DNA of 64,000 bases from Bradyrhizobium sp. Rc3b (lineage in GTDB: Bacteria; Pseudomonadota; Alphaproteobacteria; Rhizobiales; Xanthobacteraceae), in assembly GCF_900114915.1 (NCBI RefSeq), contig NZ_FOUS01000001.1:62001-126000 (forward strand), written 5' to 3'. Under the pieces are notes generated by a model. It saw nothing but the letters and a program-made list of their open reading frames with translations. It was not told where the DNA came from and made no database searches. Below, piece by piece: positions 28,918 through 63,584 of this stretch (position 1 is its first letter; each line of letters begins with the position of its first letter). Made by a program: the position numbers and the translations under genes.

Positions 28918-30381
28918 TCAAGCCATCTGCCGCACATCCTCCGCGAGTGCGCGGTAGGACAAGGCTTCGGCGAGATGCAGCCGGCCGATCTTGTCGGCGC
29001 GATCGAGGTCGGCCAGCGTGCGCGCCACCCGCAGCACGCGGTGATAGCCGCGCGCCGACAGCCGCATGGTCTCGGCGGCGTCGCGCAGCAGCTTCTGGCC
29101 CTGCGCGTCCGGCTTTGCGATCTCCTCCAGCACGGAGGCAGGAGCCTCGGCATTGGTCCGAACCTTGGGCAGGCCGGCATCGGCATAACGCGCGAGCTGA
29201 ATGTCGCGCGCCGCGGCCACGCGGGCGGCGACCTCCGCGGAGCCTTCCGCCGGCGGTGGCAGGATCAGATCCGCCGCGGTCACGGCCGGCACTTCGATGC
29301 GCAGGTCGATGCGGTCCATCAGCGGGCCGGAGATGCGCGCCTGATAGTCGCCGGTGCAGCGGTCGACGCGGCCGCGCTTGCAGGCATAGCCCGGCTCGAA
29401 CGCGTTGCCGCAGCGGCACGGATTCATCGCCGCGACCAGCATGAAGCGGGCAGGATAGGTGACGCGGTGATTGGCGCGCGACACCGCGACTTCGCCGTTC
29501 TCCAGCGGCTGCCGCAGTGAATCCAGCACGCGCGGATCGAACTCCGGCAATTCGTCGAGGAACAGCACGCCCTGATGCGCCAGCGAGATCTCGCCGGGTT
29601 TTGCACGCATGCCGCCGCCGGTGAGCGCGGCCATGCTGGCGGAATGATGCGGCGAGCGGAACGGCCGCCGCGCGGTCAGCGCGCCGCCCTCGATCTCGCC
29701 GGCGACGGAGGCGATCATCGAGACCTCGAGCAGTTCGCTCGGTGACAGCGGCGGCAGGATCGAGGGCAGGCGCGCCGCCAGCATCGACTTGCCGGCGCCG
29801 GGCGCGCCGATCATGAGCAGATGATGCCCGCCGGCGGCGGCGATCTCCAGCGCGCGCTTGGCACTTTCCTGACCCTTGATGTCGCGCAGGTCGAGCGTCG
29901 AGGCCGCGGGCTCATGCACCTTCGGTGACGGCCGCGACAGCACCTGCGTGCCCTTGAAGTGGTTGGCGATCTGGATCAGCGAGCTTGCTGCGATGATCTG
30001 GATGTCCGGGCTCGCCCACGCCGCTTCAGAACCGCACGAGACCGGGCAGATCAGCCCTTCCTCGCGCATATTGGCGCCGAACGCGGCGGGAAGAACGCCG
30101 GCCACGGGCGCGATCGAGCCGTCGAGGCCGAGCTCGCCGAGCACGGTGAAGCCGGTCAGCGCATCCGGCGGGATCGCGCCGATCGCCGCCATCAGGCCGA
30201 GTGCGATCGGCAGGTCGTAATGACTGCCTTCCTTCGGCAGGTCGGCCGGCGCCAGATTGACGATGATCCGCCGCGCCGGCAGCGCCAGGCCGGAGGCGAT
30301 CAGCGCCGAGCGCACCCGCTCGCGCGCCTCCGACACCGCCTTGTCCGGCAGGCCGACGATCGCAAAGGCAGGTCGTCAATG
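28918..30381 (-). pseudogene. comM: comM, C-terminal part (gene split by a mobile element)
   Basis: This segment encodes all but the first 33 codons of the ComM/YifB Mg-chelatase-like ATPase, the branch-migration helicase of natural transformation. It starts in mid-gene as AFAIVGLPDKAVSEARERVRS. Walker [12 protein letters not shown], the MNPCRCG motif and the C-terminal domain are intact. A stop codon in frame just upstream (about 30379-30381) comes from the inserted element. The first in-frame initiator is a GTG at 30336 giving 472 residues without the N-terminal beta strands, so the fragment is probably non-functional while the element is integrated. Confidence 0.95.
30365..30369. other. 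Left attachment core of the comM element
   Basis: AAGGC (complement GCCTT) marks the point where comM homology stops. The same five bases occur at the other junction (36378-36382). Joining the flanks through one copy restores the codons for LPAFAIVGLPDK. Large serine recombinases cross over at a 2-bp site within a short shared core like this. Confidence 0.75.
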
Positions 30382-30391
30382 ACAAATATTT

Positions 30392-30479
30392 GGGTCCCAT
30401 CTGGTCGCGTGGACCCTATTTTGGCCTTTCCCACCCTCTCGGCTTCAAATCTACTTGCCTTTAAGGTGCTGCCGCCGCC
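30392..30479 (+). repeat. Island leader repeat, copy 1
   Basis: It begins GGGTCCC and ends with a CGGCTTCAAA...TTTAAGG...GCCGCCGCC block exactly 48 bp later. The second copy (31349-31435) has the same two blocks at the same 48-bp offset, with a much diverged middle. GGGTCC (30392-30397) and GGACCC (30411-30416) can pair. It lies about 95 bp upstream of the first gene pair. Confidence 0.6.
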
Positions 30480-30574
30480 CGGCTCCAGCCTGCCGACAGG
30501 TTCCGGTCGAGGCGTAGCCGTGATACCAAGTTCGTCGGTAATCGCTGCCGTAAGGACGGTCCCTCCCAAAGCCC

Positions 30575-30997
30575 ATGAATTGGTCAGCATTCTTTCCTGT
30601 TCCCGCCTTCATCAACGGGGCACGCAGCACCGTCCTGCAAACGCTTTCCTGGATGATGGTGCTTCTCATCACAGCCCTCGTAGCTTCTGGTATCGCCCAC
30701 GTATCCGAGTGGCTTCTTGTGCTGCTCGCCGTTCTGCTCTCTATCAACTTCCTCGTGTTCATCCTTGCCTATTTGTATTTTGCTAAGACCAATCCGGAAT
30801 TCCTTCGGTCCGAGCAGTTCGCAATTCGTAAGCTGGAAATCGAGCACCGGCTTGTGGGCGACGACACCACCGGCCCTATGGAAGACATAGTGGACGGTGA
30901 GGTCATTGAGGAGCCTCGTAGGCTCGGGAGGCCTCCGCAACTCATTAGCGCGAAGCCTGCAGCGTCGAAGCGGTCCAAGCCGAGAGGCACCAAATGA
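30575..30997 (+). CDS. Small two-TM-segment membrane protein of the comM island
   Basis: A 140-residue protein of no family I recognise. Two hydrophobic segments (about 23-42 and 46-69) form a helical hairpin. The cytoplasmic C-terminal half is charged, with a basic tail (SKRSKPRGTK). Its stop codon overlaps the start of the next gene by 4 nt (ATGA), so the two are translationally coupled and likely act together. Membrane proteins of this size paired with a small soluble protein are common in phage-defence and toxin modules, but no function is shown here. Confidence 0.75.
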   Translation: MNWSAFFPVPAFINGARSTVLQTLSWMMVLLITALVASGIAHVSEWLLVLLAVLLSINFLVFILAYLYFAKTNPEFLRSEQFAIRKLEIEHRLVGDDTTGPMEDIVDGEVIEEPRRLGRPPQLISAKPAASKRSKPRGTK

Positions 30998-31299
30998 GCC
31001 GCTTCATTGTTGCTACAGACGACATGACTAAAGACCAAGAGCGCGCGTTCCTTGAGTATCTCAAAGAGAACCGGGTGGGCTGGTGGCACTACCTGAAAAA
31101 CCTCTGGCTGGTCGATACCACTCGCTCGGCGTTCACTGCCGCTGCAATTCGGGACAAGTTGGCCGATGAAATTGCGCCCGGTGTGAACCTTTTGGTCTTC
31201 CGCATAGACGGGACGACCGACTGGGCGGGCATGGGCCCGGACGATGAAAAGAGAAGCATGTTTCGGTGGCTCCTCCACAACTGGAAAGACCCGACTTAG
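30994..31299 (+). CDS. Small soluble protein, possibly Cas2-like ferredoxin fold, of the comM island
   Basis: A 101-residue protein. The N-terminal strand SRFIVATDD, a helix, then WWHYLKNLWLVDT, a second helix with AIRDKLADEI, then VNLLVFRID and WAGMG, follow a beta-alpha-beta-beta-alpha-beta order. That order resembles the Cas2/VapD/SinR-like ferredoxin fold (inference from pattern only). There is no CRISPR array or cas1 nearby, so it is not a CRISPR adaptation gene. It is translationally coupled to the upstream membrane protein. Confidence 0.7.
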   Translation: MSRFIVATDDMTKDQERAFLEYLKENRVGWWHYLKNLWLVDTTRSAFTAAAIRDKLADEIAPGVNLLVFRIDGTTDWAGMGPDDEKRSMFRWLLHNWKDPT

Positions 31300-31348
31300 T
31301 TTGCTCCTCCTAAGTGCTTAGACGGGCCGAGTTTCTCAGCCCCTGAAT

Positions 31349-31435
31349 GGGTCCCCTTTTTACTACCGGGCCCCTTTCAGAGCGACCCGGCCCCCCCGAC
31401 TTCAAACTGCTCGGCTTCAAGGGGCGGCCGCCGCC
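31349..31435 (+). repeat. Island leader repeat, copy 2
   Basis: GGGTCCC at 31349 and a CGACTTCAAA...TTCAAGG...GCCGCCGCC block at 31397-31435. The offset between blocks is 48 bp, as in copy 1 (30392-30479). It lies about 125 bp upstream of the DUF4365 gene. It may be a shared promoter or RNA leader, or the scar of a duplication. Confidence 0.6.
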
Positions 31436-31561
31436 GAACTTGCATCAGCGGCTTCGCTCCCCGATCTCCGGAGTTGCGCAACAGGGCTTGTATTGCGTTA
31501 AGTTGCAATTCAATAAATTGTCGTACTGATCAGCGCTCGCGTGGGGCAAACGGGTCTCGAA

Positions 31562-32083
31562 ATGCCAACGGTTTCGCCGTACGCGGCGACCTCTCACAGA
31601 CAGGATGAGTTCTCAGGGGCCTACATTCGGGCGGTGTGTGCCGCTGCCGGGTGTTCGCTGTCAGTGCCCAGCATCGATCACGACAAGATTGACTACTCCG
31701 TAAAATCGCGGGTGATAGGGTTGGTCAGGACAAAGCCTCAAATTGACATCCAAGCTAAGTGTCAAATGAGCGGCCTCGCGTCATCGGACCCGATTTCCTA
31801 TCCGCTGGATCTTGAGACTTATGACAATCTGCGGGACCCATTGGTCAGCATTCCAAGAATACTGGTGCTGGTCTTAGTTCCGCCTAACGTCAACGAGTGG
31901 CTTAGTCAGTCGCACAGGGAGCTTGTAATGAGCCATTGCGCCTATTGGCTTTCGCTCAAGGGCGCCGCCGAGAGTTCGAACACCACCACGCAAACGGTTC
32001 ATCTTCCGAAGAACAACGTCTTCAATCCGGCCGCCTTGCAAGTCATGATGTCCAACACGAGCAACGGATTAGACCTCTCGTGA
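31562..32083 (+). CDS. DUF4365 nuclease-like protein of the comM island
   Basis: A 173-residue protein from the ATG at 31562; a GTG 21 nt upstream is an alternative. EFSGAYIRAVCAAAGCSLS, PSIDHDKIDYSV and IDIQAKC are the DUF4365 motifs. Asp40/Asp44 with the Q-x-K of residues 64-66 match the PD-(D/E)XK-type nuclease pattern. YPLDLETYDNL and HCAYWLSLKG follow as expected. DUF4365 proteins recur in defence islands. Its stop codon overlaps the GTG start of the next gene (GTGA), so the two form a coupled pair. Confidence 0.82.
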   Translation: MPTVSPYAATSHRQDEFSGAYIRAVCAAAGCSLSVPSIDHDKIDYSVKSRVIGLVRTKPQIDIQAKCQMSGLASSDPISYPLDLETYDNLRDPLVSIPRILVLVLVPPNVNEWLSQSHRELVMSHCAYWLSLKGAAESSNTTTQTVHLPKNNVFNPAALQVMMSNTSNGLDLS

Positions 32084-33246
32084 GAGCAGTCATAAAGGAC
32101 GCACAGGCTATTGGCTCGCTGACGCCAATCAATGTCGTTGGCTACCTGCGTTCGCGTGGCTGGCAAAGGTTCAGCGAGGTGCCCGGAAAATTCTCTGTGT
32201 GGTTCCATAGCGCACATCCGGAGGCCGAAATCCTCGTCCCCGCAACGAGAGACGCGCGGGATTATGTCACTCAGATTTCTGAGGCGCTCCAAGAACTGGA
32301 GACCGTCGAGAACCGATCCCAGCTCGACATCCTCAAGGACCTGCGCAATTCCGGGTTCGACGTCATTCGGCTCGCTGCGCGCGGTGCAAGCACTCAAGAC
32401 GGTACTGTCCGCATCGATGCTGGCGTGCGGCTCTTCGAGCAGGCACGAGAACTCCTTCTTTCCGCTGCATGCGCTACGGTAAGGCCTCGGCCCGTATTTC
32501 ACTCGCGAAAGCCTCAGCCTGCACTGGAGTACATGTCGAAGGCCCGGCTTGGCCAAACCGAACACGGAAGCTACGTGCTAACGGTGCTCTCTCCAGTATC
32601 CCCCCAGCTCACCTTCCACAGCGACACCGACCTCTTTCCGGAGGAGCCCTTTGAACGCTCGGTCGTCAAAATGCTTACCGGAGCGGTGGAGCGAGCGATG
32701 AACGCCGCTGCAGCTTCTTCGATTTCTGAGGAGCAAGACTTCGGGCCTTTCCAACGTGCTGTTGACGGCGGCGTTAGTGCCAACCTGTGCGAAGCGATTG
32801 CCGGCTTCTTCGGGCCCATCGATGCTTCTGCGATTGATCTTACGGTAGCGTGGTCTCTTAACCGGCCTCTTCCTGCGGACAGCGTGCCAGCGAGGGTGCG
32901 GATAAACTCAGATTTTGTGCCCACCCTCCAGGAGGCGGCGCGTCTTTTTCGGCAATACGACAGGCTCGGGGGCTATTTGATAGAGGGCCCGGTCGTGAAG
33001 TTAGAAAGGGACGATGGGGACGACTTTGGGTTCGTTACGGTGTTCGCGCGGGTAGAGGGCACGATGCGCAAGGTTACGGTCGCCCTACCCGATGCCGACT
33101 ATAATAGAGCCTTGATGGCGCATCGCGCATACCGTCCTGTAAAGGTCACGGGCACGGTCGTACGGGAGGGGCGCTCGTATAGGCTTTACAACCCCACGGC
33201 CTTGGAGATTGCGCACGATGACGAGGATCCTGCCGAGGAGGCTTAG
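32080..33246 (+). CDS. Conserved partner of DUF4365 protein, possible OB-fold C-terminus
   Basis: A 388-residue protein from the GTG at 32080; the frame is open further upstream but only over the DUF4365 gene. I recognise the general pattern of a ~400-residue family found beside DUF4365 genes, without a named function. The N-terminal part has INVVGYLRSRGWQRF and EILVPATRDARDY. A middle segment carries LGQTEHGSYVLTVLSP. The C-terminal 80 residues (GGYLIEGPVVKLERDD, PVKVTGTVVREGRSYRLY) look like a small beta barrel of OB type (inference). It probably works with the DUF4365 protein. Confidence 0.75.
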   Translation: MRAVIKDAQAIGSLTPINVVGYLRSRGWQRFSEVPGKFSVWFHSAHPEAEILVPATRDARDYVTQISEALQELETVENRSQLDILKDLRNSGFDVIRLAARGASTQDGTVRIDAGVRLFEQARELLLSAACATVRPRPVFHSRKPQPALEYMSKARLGQTEHGSYVLTVLSPVSPQLTFHSDTDLFPEEPFERSVVKMLTGAVERAMNAAAASSISEEQDFGPFQRAVDGGVSANLCEAIAGFFGPIDASAIDLTVAWSLNRPLPADSVPARVRINSDFVPTLQEAARLFRQYDRLGGYLIEGPVVKLERDDGDDFGFVTVFARVEGTMRKVTVALPDADYNRALMAHRAYRPVKVTGTVVREGRSYRLYNPTALEIAHDDEDPAEEA

Positions 33247-33486
33247 CTGACACTACCGCACGGGGTCCACGGTGGCCCTCGACGGTTTCGTTAGAGCATT
33301 ATCGCCACCTCAATATCCCGAAGATAGTCATAAACTGGGACTGCAGGGCCGTCCGGCGCTTGCGCTGGGTGGAGTTAGCCTTGAGGGAGGCTTGGCTTCC
33401 TCTCGCGATGTAATATTAGTTCCGTTTCGGCCCTAAAGCCAGCGTATTCCGAGGGTGCAATTTGCACGTCCTGTATTTGCACTCCT
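33247..33486. other. Convergent gap in the island with a palindrome
   Basis: 240 bp between convergent genes, no credible ORF. GTGCAATTTGCAC (33456-33468) is a perfect palindrome around one central base, and a second half-site TTTGCAC follows at 33478-33484. It could be a terminator stem or a site for the adjacent ParB-like protein. Confidence 0.5.
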
Positions 33487-34440
33487 TCAGAACTCGAGGT
33501 CCGGAGGTGGGTTGGTGATCCGTGCTGCCAGCTCCGTGATCAGCTCTGGATAGTCCCCGGCCCATTCTTCGATCAGAGCTTCAGGCAACCTCTCGCTCAA
33601 CATCCTAAGCGCCATGGCAGCAATCTCGATGTCTGCCAGCAACCCAATCTCAGCATTGTGTCGCCTGATAAGTTCAGCGACCTCTTCCGCCTTCTTTTCC
33701 TTCCAAGTATCAGCGTCAAAGTCCGCGTCTGGCTCGATCCCTTCGCGGAGGTCTCTGGCCGCCTTCCAAGTTATCGTCGGGAGCTTCTCCCGCTGCTCAT
33801 CGCTTAGGTCCGTGCGCGCGTTCAGCTCCTTCCAGACCTGTTTCATGGCGAATGCGGTCCGGCGGGAAATGGTGGTGTGCTCGGCCACCTCGTCGGCGGT
33901 CAGGTTTCCGATGTTTTCCTTTGTGATCCTCCAAGCCGCTGCGCTCTTTTGGCCCGGCGTCATGCGTAGCTTGTCTCGGACATTGCCTGCGATAGCCCGC
34001 AGCCGCGCCTGATCCAATGTGCCGGTGAATACCTCCACCGGGATGTCCTTCTTCCACTTCGCGGTGTCATACGCGCCAAGGCGATGGTGGCCATCAATCA
34101 CGTAAAATCTTTTCCCTACTTGCCAGACCAGTAGGCGCGTTAGGGGTGCCTTTTGGTTTCGCAGGTCTTTCGCGAGTGTGTAAATGTGGTTCTCGCGCTC
34201 CCAGCGGTCTTGCTTTGGACCCCCGCGCCACTGGAAGGCCTCCTCGGCAACGTAAATGGCGCTGCGCGGCAGCGAGCGCTTCACCGGCCCTTGTGTCGGC
34301 TTTGCCTTCTCGCTGTCAGCCTTCAACTCTGCGGCCGTCTTCCCGCTATCCTTTGGCATTACGATGTCAGCACGTGTCACGCGTGGGCCTCGCGGTGCCC
34401 GCTGCACCTTCTTGTTGGTTTTCTTGGCCACTCGGCTCAC
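33487..34440 (-). CDS. ParB/Srx-fold protein of the comM island
   Basis: A 317-residue protein. A basic N-terminus is followed by a ParB/sulfiredoxin-like domain with VGKRFYVIDGHHRLGAYDTA (motif around 114-124). A predicted helix-turn-helix region follows, with TADEVAEHTTISRRTAFAMK at about 177-196. The C-terminal third is acidic and helical. Its start overlaps the recombinase stop by 4 nt, so the two are coupled. It may be a regulator or a recombination accessory protein; CTPase or nuclease activity is possible but not shown. Confidence 0.85.
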   Translation of the reverse strand: MSRVAKKTNKKVQRAPRGPRVTRADIVMPKDSGKTAAELKADSEKAKPTQGPVKRSLPRSAIYVAEEAFQWRGGPKQDRWERENHIYTLAKDLRNQKAPLTRLLVWQVGKRFYVIDGHHRLGAYDTAKWKKDIPVEVFTGTLDQARLRAIAGNVRDKLRMTPGQKSAAAWRITKENIGNLTADEVAEHTTISRRTAFAMKQVWKELNARTDLSDEQREKLPTITWKAARDLREGIEPDADFDADTWKEKKAEEVAELIRRHNAEIGLLADIEIAAMALRMLSERLPEALIEEWAGDYPELITELAARITNPPPDLEF

Positions 34441-36107
34441 CCTTCTTTCGTGTTCGTTGGATGTGTGTGGTCAGGAAACAATGCGCGCATTGGCGGCTTC
34501 GTTTCCCGAAAGTCTTCCCAACTCATGTGTCGAGTAGCACACGGAACGTCCTGCACTTCGTCAGAGTGGTGCCACCGGACCCAGAGGTGTCCCTGCTCCG
34601 GATCGAGCACAACGCGTCGTATGGCGTCCCTCAGGACCCCATTGATCTCCACGGTGTCTGTGTTGCCGCTCAGTGCGCGTTCCACCGCCTTGAGGCGGTC
34701 CTTAACGCTGGCGGTGGTCAGCGTGTCCCTTTGAGCCCTCAGGTCCCGAAGTTCCTTCTTAAGGCTCTTGAGGCGCTGCTCCACCTCTCTCAGTTTTCGC
34801 GACGCTGCCGTCGCCTCAGGTGTCCCCCGCTCTTCGGCGATTAGCTGCAGCAAATCGGATGCAAGGGTTTCCATTCCGTCCGCCTCAGCCTGCGTCCGCT
34901 CAATCAGCTTTTCCAGCGCTGCGGTGCTCTTCCCTCTGGGCGCATCCTTGACCAGCCGCCGTGCGTTCTCTCTCAGCGCCTTCTCGACGGTGTCATACCG
35001 CACGGCCTGATAGGGGTGTCCGTCCGCTCGCATGTTGGCTCGGGAGCACACGAGGTACACGTACTGACCCTTGGCGACCCTCGTGACCGCGTGTCCGCAA
35101 GTGGCGCAGAACACGATGCCGGCCACGATGGATTTCGGCGCCTGTCTGGCGTTGCGCCCGCGTGCCGCCGTTGTGCTGAGCTTGCGGTGAACTCTCCAGT
35201 ATGTGTCCGCATCGACAGCGGCCGGAAACAGGTTCTCCACGGGTGCCATAGGTTCGTCACGGCGCGCTCGGGTAACCTCATCATGCGTTGTAGTGTGTGG
35301 CGTGAAGGTCCCAATAGGTGCGGTACTCGTGAGCACCTTGCGGATGTAGCTCGTGCGCCAGTGATCTGCGGTTCTCTGCTTTCCGCTTCTGCCCCACGTC
35401 GGGACGCCGCGTTGGTTGAAGTCGCGGGCTATGCGCTCAAGCCCGTCACCCGCGTCCATGCGCTTAAACATTTCGCGCACGAGGTCGGCACGCTCCTTGA
35501 TCAAGGTGTATCGCTGATCGTCCTCAGACCACCTGATCCAAGCGGGTGTCTGCCGGGTGTATGGCTTGCCTTCAAGTCCGTGTTCTGCAAGTCGCTTTTT
35601 CTTTCGCGCCTTGGCGTCGCCGATGAGTTGAGCTTTCCGCACGCTCTCTTTGTTCGCGCGGATCAGCTCCAACACAACGAGCAAGAGGGCCTCTGGCTCG
35701 CGTTCGAGGCGCGCCAATGAGTAGGCCTCAAAGTTCGTCAAGGTGACCACGGTGATGCCGCTGACGATCAGTTGGCTGAACAGCGCCTGTGCGGTGATGA
35801 TGTCGGCACGCGACAGACGATCCATGTTCTCGATCAGCAGGTAGCTTCCCCGCTCGACATAACCTTTCCGAACGGCCTCAAGGAACTCCCCGAGCGCCCC
35901 TGTGCGGGCGTTCTTACCGCGGAACGCGGACACGCCCAGGTCGGTCATGTTCAACTCGGTGTCCAACGTCAGCCCATGCTCAAGTGCATACTTGGCCGCC
36001 TTCTCGCTCTGACGCTGCAGGCTGGCTCCAGCGGCTTGCGAAGGTGTCGAGAACCTGACGTATGAGTACGCCTTGGTCTGGGCTTCGGTGTACGGAGGGG
36101 CGTCCAT
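34437..36107 (-). CDS. Large serine recombinase (site-specific integrase) of the comM island
   Basis: A 556-residue recombinase. The resolvase catalytic domain (about 12-160) has YSYVRFSTPSQ with Ser20 as nucleophile and ENMDRLSRAD with conserved arginines. The recombinase domain follows (about 175-310). A zinc-ribbon-type segment FCATCGHAV (about 333-341) comes next, then a coiled coil (about 395-465). It is preceded by a GAGG Shine-Dalgarno in the end of the small upstream ORF. It is the likely integrase and excisionase of the element in comM. Confidence 0.95.
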   Translation of the reverse strand: MDAPPYTEAQTKAYSYVRFSTPSQAAGASLQRQSEKAAKYALEHGLTLDTELNMTDLGVSAFRGKNARTGALGEFLEAVRKGYVERGSYLLIENMDRLSRADIITAQALFSQLIVSGITVVTLTNFEAYSLARLEREPEALLLVVLELIRANKESVRKAQLIGDAKARKKKRLAEHGLEGKPYTRQTPAWIRWSEDDQRYTLIKERADLVREMFKRMDAGDGLERIARDFNQRGVPTWGRSGKQRTADHWRTSYIRKVLTSTAPIGTFTPHTTTHDEVTRARRDEPMAPVENLFPAAVDADTYWRVHRKLSTTAARGRNARQAPKSIVAGIVFCATCGHAVTRVAKGQYVYLVCSRANMRADGHPYQAVRYDTVEKALRENARRLVKDAPRGKSTAALEKLIERTQAEADGMETLASDLLQLIAEERGTPEATAASRKLREVEQRLKSLKKELRDLRAQRDTLTTASVKDRLKAVERALSGNTDTVEINGVLRDAIRRVVLDPEQGHLWVRWHHSDEVQDVPCATRHMSWEDFRETKPPMRALFPDHTHPTNTKEG

Positions 36108-36110
36108 GGC

Positions 36111-36311
36111 TCAGCCTCGGTCCGTAGCGTCGGCTCTCAGGGCTTCCAGCGGCTCGGTCGTATCCGCCAGTCCCCCGTACGCCTGCCGCTGTACGACGCG
36201 CTCTCCAAGGCTCCCAAGGCCTTCCAGCGGCCGCGCCACCGGAGCCATGACACAAACAGGCTTACTGGTGCTCTTCAGCGCAACGATGCTAACCGGGTTC
36301 CAAAATTCCAT
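36111..36311 (-). CDS. Small protein upstream of the recombinase
   Basis: A 66-residue reading frame starting MEFWNPVSIVALKSTSKPV, with a good GGAGA Shine-Dalgarno 7 nt before the ATG at 36311. It ends 3 nt before the recombinase start, which suggests translational coupling. No family is recognised. Its position next to attR and the integrase suggests a directionality factor or regulator, but its sequence does not show a helix-turn-helix, so this is a guess. The frame is also open up to an ATG at 36359. Confidence 0.5.
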   Translation of the reverse strand: MEFWNPVSIVALKSTSKPVCVMAPVARPLEGLGSLGERVVQRQAYGGLADTTEPLEALRADATDRG

Positions 36312-36370
36312 TGCAATCTCCGTGTGATACTGATTGCCGCCGCCGTATAGCGTTGGCATTCACACTCTGC

Positions 36371-36469
36371 AATGGCGAAGGCCGGCAAGCCCGGCGCGAC
36401 CTGCACCTGCACGTCGACCGCACGGGCCTCGATCCCCTCAAAGGCGACGGTGGAAACCCGCTGAACCAT
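36371..36469 (-). pseudogene. comM: comM, N-terminal part (first 33 codons, split by the element)
   Basis: The start codon at 36469 begins MVQRVSTVAFEGIEARAVDV, the standard ComM N-terminus, and homology ends at GLPAFAI, close to the AAGGC core (36378-36382). Translation continues for about 30 codons into the element. The remainder of comM lies at 28918-30369. Joined at the core, the two parts encode about 512 residues, the normal ComM length. Confidence 0.93.
36378..36382. other. Right attachment core of the comM element
   Basis: AAGGC shared with 30365-30369. The bases to the right (CGGCAAGCCCGG) are comM; the bases to the left are element sequence. Confidence 0.75.
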
Positions 36470-62278: not shown

Positions 62279-62809
62279 TCAGGTCACCGGATTGTAGGTC
62301 GGGCCGCGCCGGGCGGCATTCAGGGCGCCGACCAAAGCATTGTAAAAACTCGCTTTTTCCTCCGGCCCGAGAAAGCCGGCAATGAGAATCCGGCGGCCGC
62401 GCGAGATCAGATAGAGGTGCTCGATGCCGTATTCCTCGTCGACCTCCTGGTCGATCCGGACCCAGAGCGGATTGAACGTCCATTCCGAGACCTGGCCGCG
62501 ATGGCTGACGCGGCGCACGCGCAGCTCCGACGGCGTGACCACGATCTCCTCGCTGGCCCGCGCCGCGCGGAAATTGGCCTTGAAGGCCCACCAGATCACG
62601 AGAACGTCGAGGCCGAAGAAACCGAACACCGGCCAGGCACCCATCATCAGGAAGGCGAGGCCCGTGACGAAGCTGACCACGCTCAGGAACAGCATCACGG
62701 CGAGGAAGCCGGTGCGGTTCAGCGAGCGGTGCGGCGTCAGCAGCGCGGAGAAGATCTGCGCGTCGCGCGGATCAGGATCGCTGCCGTCAATTTCGTTGCC
62801 TGTGCTCAT
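62279..62809 (-). CDS. DUF2244 family membrane protein
   Basis: A 176-residue protein with two adjacent TM segments (about 33-75) and a C-terminal cytoplasmic domain. LLTPHRSLNRTGFLAVM and the WTFNPLWVRI segment are DUF2244 features. Function is unknown. It is divergent from nth, with only 22 bp between the start codons, so the two promoters overlap the opposite coding regions. Confidence 0.88.
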   Translation of the reverse strand: MSTGNEIDGSDPDPRDAQIFSALLTPHRSLNRTGFLAVMLFLSVVSFVTGLAFLMMGAWPVFGFFGLDVLVIWWAFKANFRAARASEEIVVTPSELRVRRVSHRGQVSEWTFNPLWVRIDQEVDEEYGIEHLYLISRGRRILIAGFLGPEEKASFYNALVGALNAARRGPTYNPVT

Positions 62810-62831
62810 CGTCCCTCAGTATATCCCGATC

Positions 62832-63584
62832 ATGGCGAAAATCACCCGCAAGCCGGCTCCGCGCAAAGCGCCGGTGCCGAAGAAGAAGGCAAAGGCGGTC
62901 GTCGCAAAGCCGAACGCGCCCACCAAAAAGACGCTCAAGGCGATAAAGCGCTGGACGCCCGCCGAGGTCCATGAAGTCTTCAGCCGTTTCCGCAAGGCCA
63001 ATCCGGAGCCGAAGGGCGAGCTCGAGCACGTCAATCCGTTCACGCTGCTGGTCGCCGTGGTGCTGTCGGCACAGGCAACCGATGCCGGCGTCAACAAGGC
63101 GACGCGCGCCTTGTTCGAGGTCGCCGACACCCCGCAGAAGATGCTCGATCTCGGCGAGGAGTCTTTACGCGAGTACATCAAGACGATCGGCCTCTACCGC
63201 ACCAAGGCCAGGAACGTGATCGCGCTGTCGGCCAAGGTGCTCAGCGAGTTCGGCGGCGAGGTGCCGCGCACGCGCGCCGGGATCGAGTCGTTGCCCGGCG
63301 CCGGCCGCAAGACCGCCAACGTCGTGCTCAACATGGCCTTCGGCGAGCACACCATGGCGGTCGACACGCATGTCTTCCGCGTCGGCAATCGCACGGGACT
63401 TGCGCCCGGCAAGACGCCGCTCGAAGTCGAGCTTGGTCTCGAAAAGGTGATCCCGGCCGAGTTCATGCTGCATGCCCATCATTGGCTGATCCTCCATGGC
63501 CGCTATACTTGCCTCGCGCGCAAGCCGCGCTGTGAGGTCTGTCTGATCAACGATCTGTGCCGGTGGCCGGAGAAGACGGTGTGA
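62832..63584 (+). CDS. nth: Endonuclease III
   Basis: DNA glycosylase/AP lyase for oxidised pyrimidines. A basic Lys/Ala-rich leader (about 1-40) precedes the core. The helix-hairpin-helix SLPGAGRKTANVVL carries the catalytic Lys, and AVDTHVFRVGNR the catalytic Asp. The C-terminal cluster motif is CLARKPRCEVCLINDLC, four cysteines for a 4Fe-4S cluster. The ATG at 62832 gives 250 residues; the frame stays open upstream only as antisense of DUF2244. Confidence 0.97.
   Translation: MAKITRKPAPRKAPVPKKKAKAVVAKPNAPTKKTLKAIKRWTPAEVHEVFSRFRKANPEPKGELEHVNPFTLLVAVVLSAQATDAGVNKATRALFEVADTPQKMLDLGEESLREYIKTIGLYRTKARNVIALSAKVLSEFGGEVPRTRAGIESLPGAGRKTANVVLNMAFGEHTMAVDTHVFRVGNRTGLAPGKTPLEVELGLEKVIPAEFMLHAHHWLILHGRYTCLARKPRCEVCLINDLCRWPEKTV

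Follow-up and report, generated by a model that had tools for sequence, protein, structure and literature searches.

The split comM gene and the genes of the insertion

The locus raises the question of how comM came to lie in two pieces, and whether the gene was a convenient place to dock or one worth breaking. Within the window (the whole analysed stretch of 64,000 nucleotides from Bradyrhizobium sp. Rc3b, genome G000), codons 1-33 of comM are found at 36469-36371 and the remainder at 30369-28918, both on the minus strand and separated by a gap of about 6.0 kb. If the flanks are joined in silico, the result is an open frame for a 512-residue ComM with LPAFAIVGLPDK, in agreement with an earlier, sequence-only reading that described comM as interrupted in frame by an element of this size with a large serine recombinase. 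Counted up to the inferred crossover, the 5' piece (36377..36469, minus strand) consists of codons 1-31, with the in-frame reading continuing into the element, and the 3' piece (28918..30361, minus strand) carries the stop codon together with the AAA+ and C-terminal domains and the greater part of ChlI (Pfam Mg_chelatase, Mg_chelatase_C and ChlI). The GC content is 0.588 in the element as opposed to 0.65 in the flanks. The same reading had proposed a search for empty sites in relatives, and all 29 of the fetched comM alleles closest to that of the window are uninterrupted at the insertion site. Since a search of G000 also gave a single comM match, the split is not a matter of chance.

The explanation we prefer, with a probability of about 0.86, is that comM was split in frame by a ca. 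6.0-kb island, likely inserted by its own large serine recombinase at the GC dinucleotide of codon 32. The recombinase would have recombined the attP of the island with this GC, and the insertion, which severs the first 32 codons from the ComM AAA+ protein, is predicted to inactivate it. It is rather improbable that the 3' piece still yields a working protein from an internal GTG at 30336, i.e. that comM is modified and not lost. The 472-aa open frame does retain the AAA+ and C-terminal domains, but it is without the first 40 residues, aligns to the ChlI profile from position 23 of 121 onward, and its start is putative.

The inserted island encodes a large serine recombinase of 556 aa (34437..36107, minus strand; Pfam Resolvase, Recombinase and Zn-ribbon; phrog_95). 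The catalytic residues S20, R18, R97 and R100 are invariant across 27 aligned recombinase rows and all are present in the window protein. The stop codon of this gene is overlapped by 4 nt by the start of a ParB-like gene (317 aa; 33487..34440, minus strand; phrog_1033, E 1.4e-9; no Pfam match), and a relative of the latter adjoins the recombinase in many related loci. This gene coupling makes the ParB-like protein a candidate excision partner. ParB-related proteins have been tied to partition in a published paper; a kinship with phiC31-type directionality factors was also considered and was dropped, as the accessible parts of the literature gave no support for it. Excision by the same recombinase, probably with a partner such as the ParB-like protein, would restore comM exactly, so that reversibility by precise excision is plausible from the arrangement of the sequence.

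On the opposite strand there are two overlapping genes that match the PADLOC models of PDC-M02A (180 aa; 31541..32083; DUF4365, Pfam PF14280; E 9e-61) and PDC-M02B (ca. 388 aa; 32080..33246; E 4.6e-137, scanned from 32083), the GTG start of the second overlapping the stop of the first; the adjacent pair by which PADLOC defines PDC-M02 is thus present. In M02B, a C-terminal OB fold is predicted (structure model pLDDT 91, OB-fold matches to residues 293-382), although the fold search gave nothing at E<=0.001 and the OB fold itself is common. The term PDC-M02 was absent from the open-access literature searched. We regard the two proteins as a candidate anti-phage pair that may be active in defence. 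A distant M02A/M02B-like pair (24-27% identity, L160:4917-6529) was seen in the comM element of G567, which belongs to another genus. The remaining frames of the island are hypothetical proteins of 140 aa (30575..30997, plus strand; phrog_27377) and 101 aa (30994..31299, plus strand; phrog_1090, weak), and an 82-aa ORF between the recombinase and the att arm (36111..36359, minus strand) that has no family match and may not be a gene.

As to the kind of element, its 7 proteins gave no match to phage structural or lysis families, four of them falling into PHROGs of unknown function; this speaks against a prophage and agrees with the sequence-only reading that had called the element non-phage. 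An ICE or IME was rejected as well, given that no relaxase or conjugation family was found in these 7 proteins. The PADLOC scan of cargo covered part of the island ORFs, 37 proteins from several islands, the window's recombinase and ParB-like protein among those scanned; nine of the 37 matched, all at E<=1e-8, and eight matches were kept, a DrmD match in G046 being dropped because the protein adjoins an IstA-like transposase. No enrichment of defence genes is seen over the control, 2 of 10 chromosomal proteins of the window matching PADLOC at E<=1e-8. For one chromosomal ORF of the window (62424-63584), PADLOC reports a type II nicking endonuclease model (E 6.7e-18).

The attachment site and its orientation

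The sequence-only reading had taken the AAGGC common to both junctions as the core of the site. The word is present at both junctions as GCCTT/AAGGC, but the copy by the 3' piece is the half-site of the element itself (CCTTT|GC). The inferred crossover is the palindromic GC found at 36375..36376 at the 5' comM junction (codon 32) and at 30362..30363 at the 3' junction. It is flanked by the element arm P' (CATTGCAGAGTGTGAATGCCAA...; 36349..36374, minus strand), which occurs in reversed position in G060, G153, G183 and G046, and by the arm P (...TTTGTCATTGACGACCTGCCTTT; 30364..30389, minus strand), an imperfect inverted repeat of P' around GC.

For locating the centre of the site, elements were aligned on comM codon 30 and only dinucleotides identical at both junctions were counted. 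In all 8 complete site-A elements aligned in this way (site A being our name for the codon-32 position), the inverted repeat scored highest when centred on the GC of codon 32, six bases into the frame, and 12-17 of 24 positions paired there. In the window element 14 of 24 positions pair around this GC, followed by an AT three bases on with 12 of 24; the AT is the second-best centre in the window, G245a and G192, with 12 to 14, and it is not common to both junctions in G060, G153, G046 and G115a. A ninth element, G148, has the same GC centre (17/24) even though it represents a lineage with a recombinase only 30% identical to that of the window, which brings the count to 9 of 9 complete recombinase-bearing site-A elements. 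The junction of G093 is an inexact fit to the codon-32 offset. In the inverted elements of G060, G153, G183 and G046 the 5'-side arm of the window abuts the 3' half of comM, and the sequences diverge at GC. In view of the centre of the repeats and the swapped arms, AAGGC is rejected as the core of the site: it reflects a partial likeness of attP and attB, and crossover would take place on the GC of codon 32. The att sites have inverted arms around an identical dinucleotide, as expected of a large serine recombinase. The restored protein is identical whichever crossover, GC or AAGGC, is taken, and the reconstituted empty site ttgccggccttcGCgatcgtcggcct is one base off that of L037, the intact comM allele closest to the window's.

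The islands of the AbaR/Tn6022 group in Acinetobacter occupy the same target gene, but they are inserted by DDE transposition with target duplication, not by a serine recombinase. One could therefore read the 5-bp word common to both junctions as the target duplication of an AbaR/Tn7-like transposon. We find this very hard to maintain: no transposase family, let alone a DDE transposase set, was found in the 7 element proteins, the GCCTT on the 3' side is part of the element arm, and the inverted repeats centre on GC.

Insertion by the serine recombinase at GC has a consequence for orientation. By the central-dinucleotide rule, a serine recombinase with a palindromic core could not distinguish the two directions, hence the GC would accept the element either way, and the relatives are indeed found both ways. 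Judged from their strands, the 14 recombinase-bearing elements at site A divide evenly, 7 forward and 7 inverted, as a palindromic crossover predicts. For a second docking point (site B, near codon 214), the automated test put the centre of the arms on CT in only 6 of the 10 complete elements; the exceptions are G141, which has swapped arms by eye, G025, with TT against CT, as well as G451 and G567. Among the site-B elements of the clade closest to the recombinase of the window, 10 of 11 are forward. The difference in orientation between site A and this clade (7/7 versus 10/1) has a Fisher p of 0.042, relatedness being ignored.

Relatives of the element and changes of docking point

Relatives were sought by the sequence of the recombinase and not by comM, with scoring confined to the top 3 to 5 candidates of each genome (at most 5 in the genus), so relatives elsewhere may be missed. 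Among 265 Bradyrhizobium genomes there were 39 recombinase matches at E<=1e-20 in 34 genomes, corresponding to 36 loci. A comM junction is found at 33 of the 36 loci (31 genomes; for some of these loci a single junction is in hand), site A accounting for 14 of them and site B or its vicinity for 19. Other genomes with the recombinase beside a split comM, for which the sequence-only reading had suggested looking, are thus found in the genus. In G245 and G115 both points are occupied, each by one recombinase, and comM is in three pieces, in G115 across two contigs. As regards the other three loci, G135 is a fragment, G247 lies at a contig end, and the element of G160, with a 76%-identical recombinase, lies within an IS21 istB gene (IstB_IS21, E 2.2e-11; L077), inserted in the part that encodes the P loop. 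A free circle was rejected for G160 as the flanks match istB; its comM is uninterrupted at codon 32 and frameshifted near codon 207.

In a sample of 397 genomes of the order there were 18 loci outside Bradyrhizobium at E<=1e-60. Fifteen of them are in comM, all at or near site B; the others are L141, which lies behind a phage portal gene, and L149 and L150, without comM in 18 kb. In a sample of 385 genomes of the class, comM adjoins 5 of 7 further loci, G810 near codons 33-36 among them, and no comM was found in the short flanks fetched for L168 and L169. Among viral contigs, 1 of the best 80 of 199 relative-bearing loci had comM in the fetched flank. The window's element bears the mark of this comM-docking recombinase clade, a position within comM with the frame regained on joining. 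Across Alphaproteobacteria the clade has its comM docking points at codon 32 and close to codon 214, and it carries exchangeable cargo.

The recombinase genes of the relatives G060, G046, G052, G175 and G241 are broken, therefore many insertions may be permanent. In G161 an island (L286, G161:C104:77500-97000) splits comM at the same GC with the arms of an inverted element and keeps M02A and M02B (78% and 72-82% identical); no recombinase match was found in it, which indicates that cargo can outlast the loss of the recombinase. The comM of G161 has in addition a frameshift near codon 332. These decayed recombinases and the G161 island invite the view that the island of the window is likewise an immobile remnant and comM is lost for good, and as comEC is also split in the strain (see below), comM may not be under selection. 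We consider such a dead remnant unlikely, for the recombinase and ParB-like ORFs of the window are open, the catalytic residues are present and both att arms are kept. An island that may still be mobile today, inserted by its own recombinase, fits these features better.

The docking point has moved in the course of evolution. In a tree of 49 recombinases, parsimony requires at least 4 changes of the comM point, and the well-supported branches alone require 3. This third forced change rests on G810, which was counted as site A with a junction not shown to fall on GC; without G810 and the other class rows (45-row tree) there are 3 changes by parsimony, of which 2 are forced. The trees were quick searches; the 49-row tree left out broken or partial recombinases (G060, G046, G052, G175, G241, G135, G247, G509, Q54) and the deep non-comM rows L149, L150, L168 and L169, of which L149 and L150 are in the 45-row tree. 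A single site-A clade is rejected by the AU test (p 1.25e-5; 19 rows, G115a outside the group, the group being named after the tree was seen). The attachment site thus changed within comM at least twice, or three times if one less certain junction is counted. Two further rows, G160 and G283, moved out of comM. The recombinase of G283, a member of the comM clade (L157:7700-10161), is directly behind a truncated phage portal gene (PF04860) that may be a prophage or gene-transfer-agent gene.

What keeps these elements in comM? In the common alleles the right halves of sites A and B are alike, sharing the 12-base word SYCATSRTCGGC, which was built by eye from these alleles and from which the reconstructed site A of the window is one base off. 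The word occurs 310 times in G000 (147 forward, 163 reverse; the reversed control gives 10 and 9), therefore likeness alone fails to explain why the elements stay in comM. The idea that conservation within comM peaks at sites A and B was rejected too, at least for the 29 intact genus alleles most like that of G000, in which 79% and 83% of sequence windows, respectively, are more conserved.

A neutral account is that comM is used as a widespread, single-copy and dispensable gene, any effect on transformation being incidental. It is possible, at somewhat less than even odds in our judgement. Loss of comM is evidently tolerated, as the gene is frameshifted in G053, G057, G118, G160, G191 and G214 with no island seen in it, and no enrichment of the cargo over the control was seen. 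On the other hand, at least two or three shifts of the site took place within comM, the many occurrences of the half-site word mean that other landing places may exist, and the two sites are not the most conserved DNA of the gene. Taken together, the site changes, the frequent word and the conservation result favour, without proving, some advantage in hitting comM. Such shifts of the docking point within one gene help to separate a convenient DNA word from a gene worth breaking, and the clade offers recombinases naturally paired with their att sites, on which the preference for comM can be tested.

Other inserts were also seen in comM. In G014, G196, G176 and G151 (loci L151, L152, L153 and L154) an insert of ca. 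4 kb interrupts the gene around codon 241-245; it encodes an IS1595-type transposase by Pfam in G014 and similar ORFs in the other three; DUF3800 proteins are present within the inserts of G196 and G151.

Known systems and the second split gene, comEC

It is useful to compare the island with known elements. Firstly, magnesium-chelatase (comM-type) genes are the target of 12.4% of predicted site-specific integrases, with competence genes enriched (Durrant 2022, PMC10083194), and those elements are, like the present one, large serine recombinases inside a comM-type gene. Secondly, most Wolbachia sr1WO phages use the magnesium chelatase gene (PMC9203015); they share with the window island a serine recombinase, the target gene and predicted att sites within it, but they are prophages, whereas the island is ca. 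6 kb long and has no phage structural family that we could find. The use of comM as an attachment site by a serine-recombinase element, which the sequence-only reading took to be an independent case, is supported but not new as a kind: comM is already published as a docking gene of large serine recombinases, and the window island belongs to a known group. Two comM points, a palindromic orientation-free crossover and moves between points are not described in the accessible text of Durrant 2022 (PMC10083194), and the open-access literature searched yielded no report of two comM points or a palindromic GC, nor of islands in comM or comEC of Bradyrhizobium. Apparently undescribed, then, are the palindromic orientation-free site and, genus-wide, moves within comM together with the striking of comEC. 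A palindromic core would amount to natural orientation-free integration, a source of new recombinase tools. That large serine recombinases prefer comM is known; the question that matters is the reason.

Thirdly, comM is split in Aggregatibacter, Acinetobacter, Mannheimia, Francisella and P. syringae, and comK, comFA, comYC and, in pneumococcus, comEC are further split genes, the targeting of which has been modelled (Croucher 2016, PMC4774983). Those elements, like ours, sit in a transformation gene, and are there proposed to stop their own removal by transformation; the hosts are different, and serine recombinases and Bradyrhizobium are unmentioned in the main text of that paper. Excision of prophages from pneumococcal comGC and comEC has been reported (PMC10383233), where restoration of the gene was measured, while for the window island excision is predicted.

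A second gene of the transformation pathway is interrupted in the same strain. In G000, comEC lies on contig C10 in two same-strand halves about 57 kb apart, matching profile positions 1-125 and 124-267, and the halves join in frame at HPSFQ|MSFAAT, codon 406 of 758 (G000:C10:58029-117543; L254, L255). A tyrosine integrase of the intervening island of roughly 57 kb (PF00589, E 7.3e-27) adjoins the 3' half, with matches at E<=1e-30 in 41 of 265 genomes. Of the 30 integrase loci fetched (G000 included), 25 have a comEC 3' piece from codon 400-404 within 1.5 kb, the 5' half having been looked for in G000 only; of the other five, L271 ends at a contig edge, and no comEC is seen at the four with <=57% identity. 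The comM and comEC islands are not associated, as they co-occur in 3 genomes (G000, G121, G153) versus about 3 expected (31 x 25 / 265).

The suggestion of the sequence-only reading that the insertion shuts down DNA uptake is inexact on two counts, for ComM is described as acting after DNA import (PMC4774983) and the import gene comEC is itself split. With comEC in two pieces as well, the loss of comM in the present strain may have no effect on transformation. At the level of the genus, the fact that an unrelated integrase family strikes comEC weighs against comM being a neutral docking place. We therefore put forward, tentatively and with slightly more doubt than trust, that the transformation genes of Bradyrhizobium are selected targets, comM of a serine-recombinase clade and comEC of an unrelated tyrosine-integrase family. 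If this is true, comM and comEC would both be disabled in one strain, as predicted by the theory that mobile elements sabotage transformation, and their recurrence as docking genes makes this theory testable beyond the classical competent bacteria. The comEC island also carries, close to one of its ends, a gene for a DprA-family protein (PF02481; L254:9328-10179).
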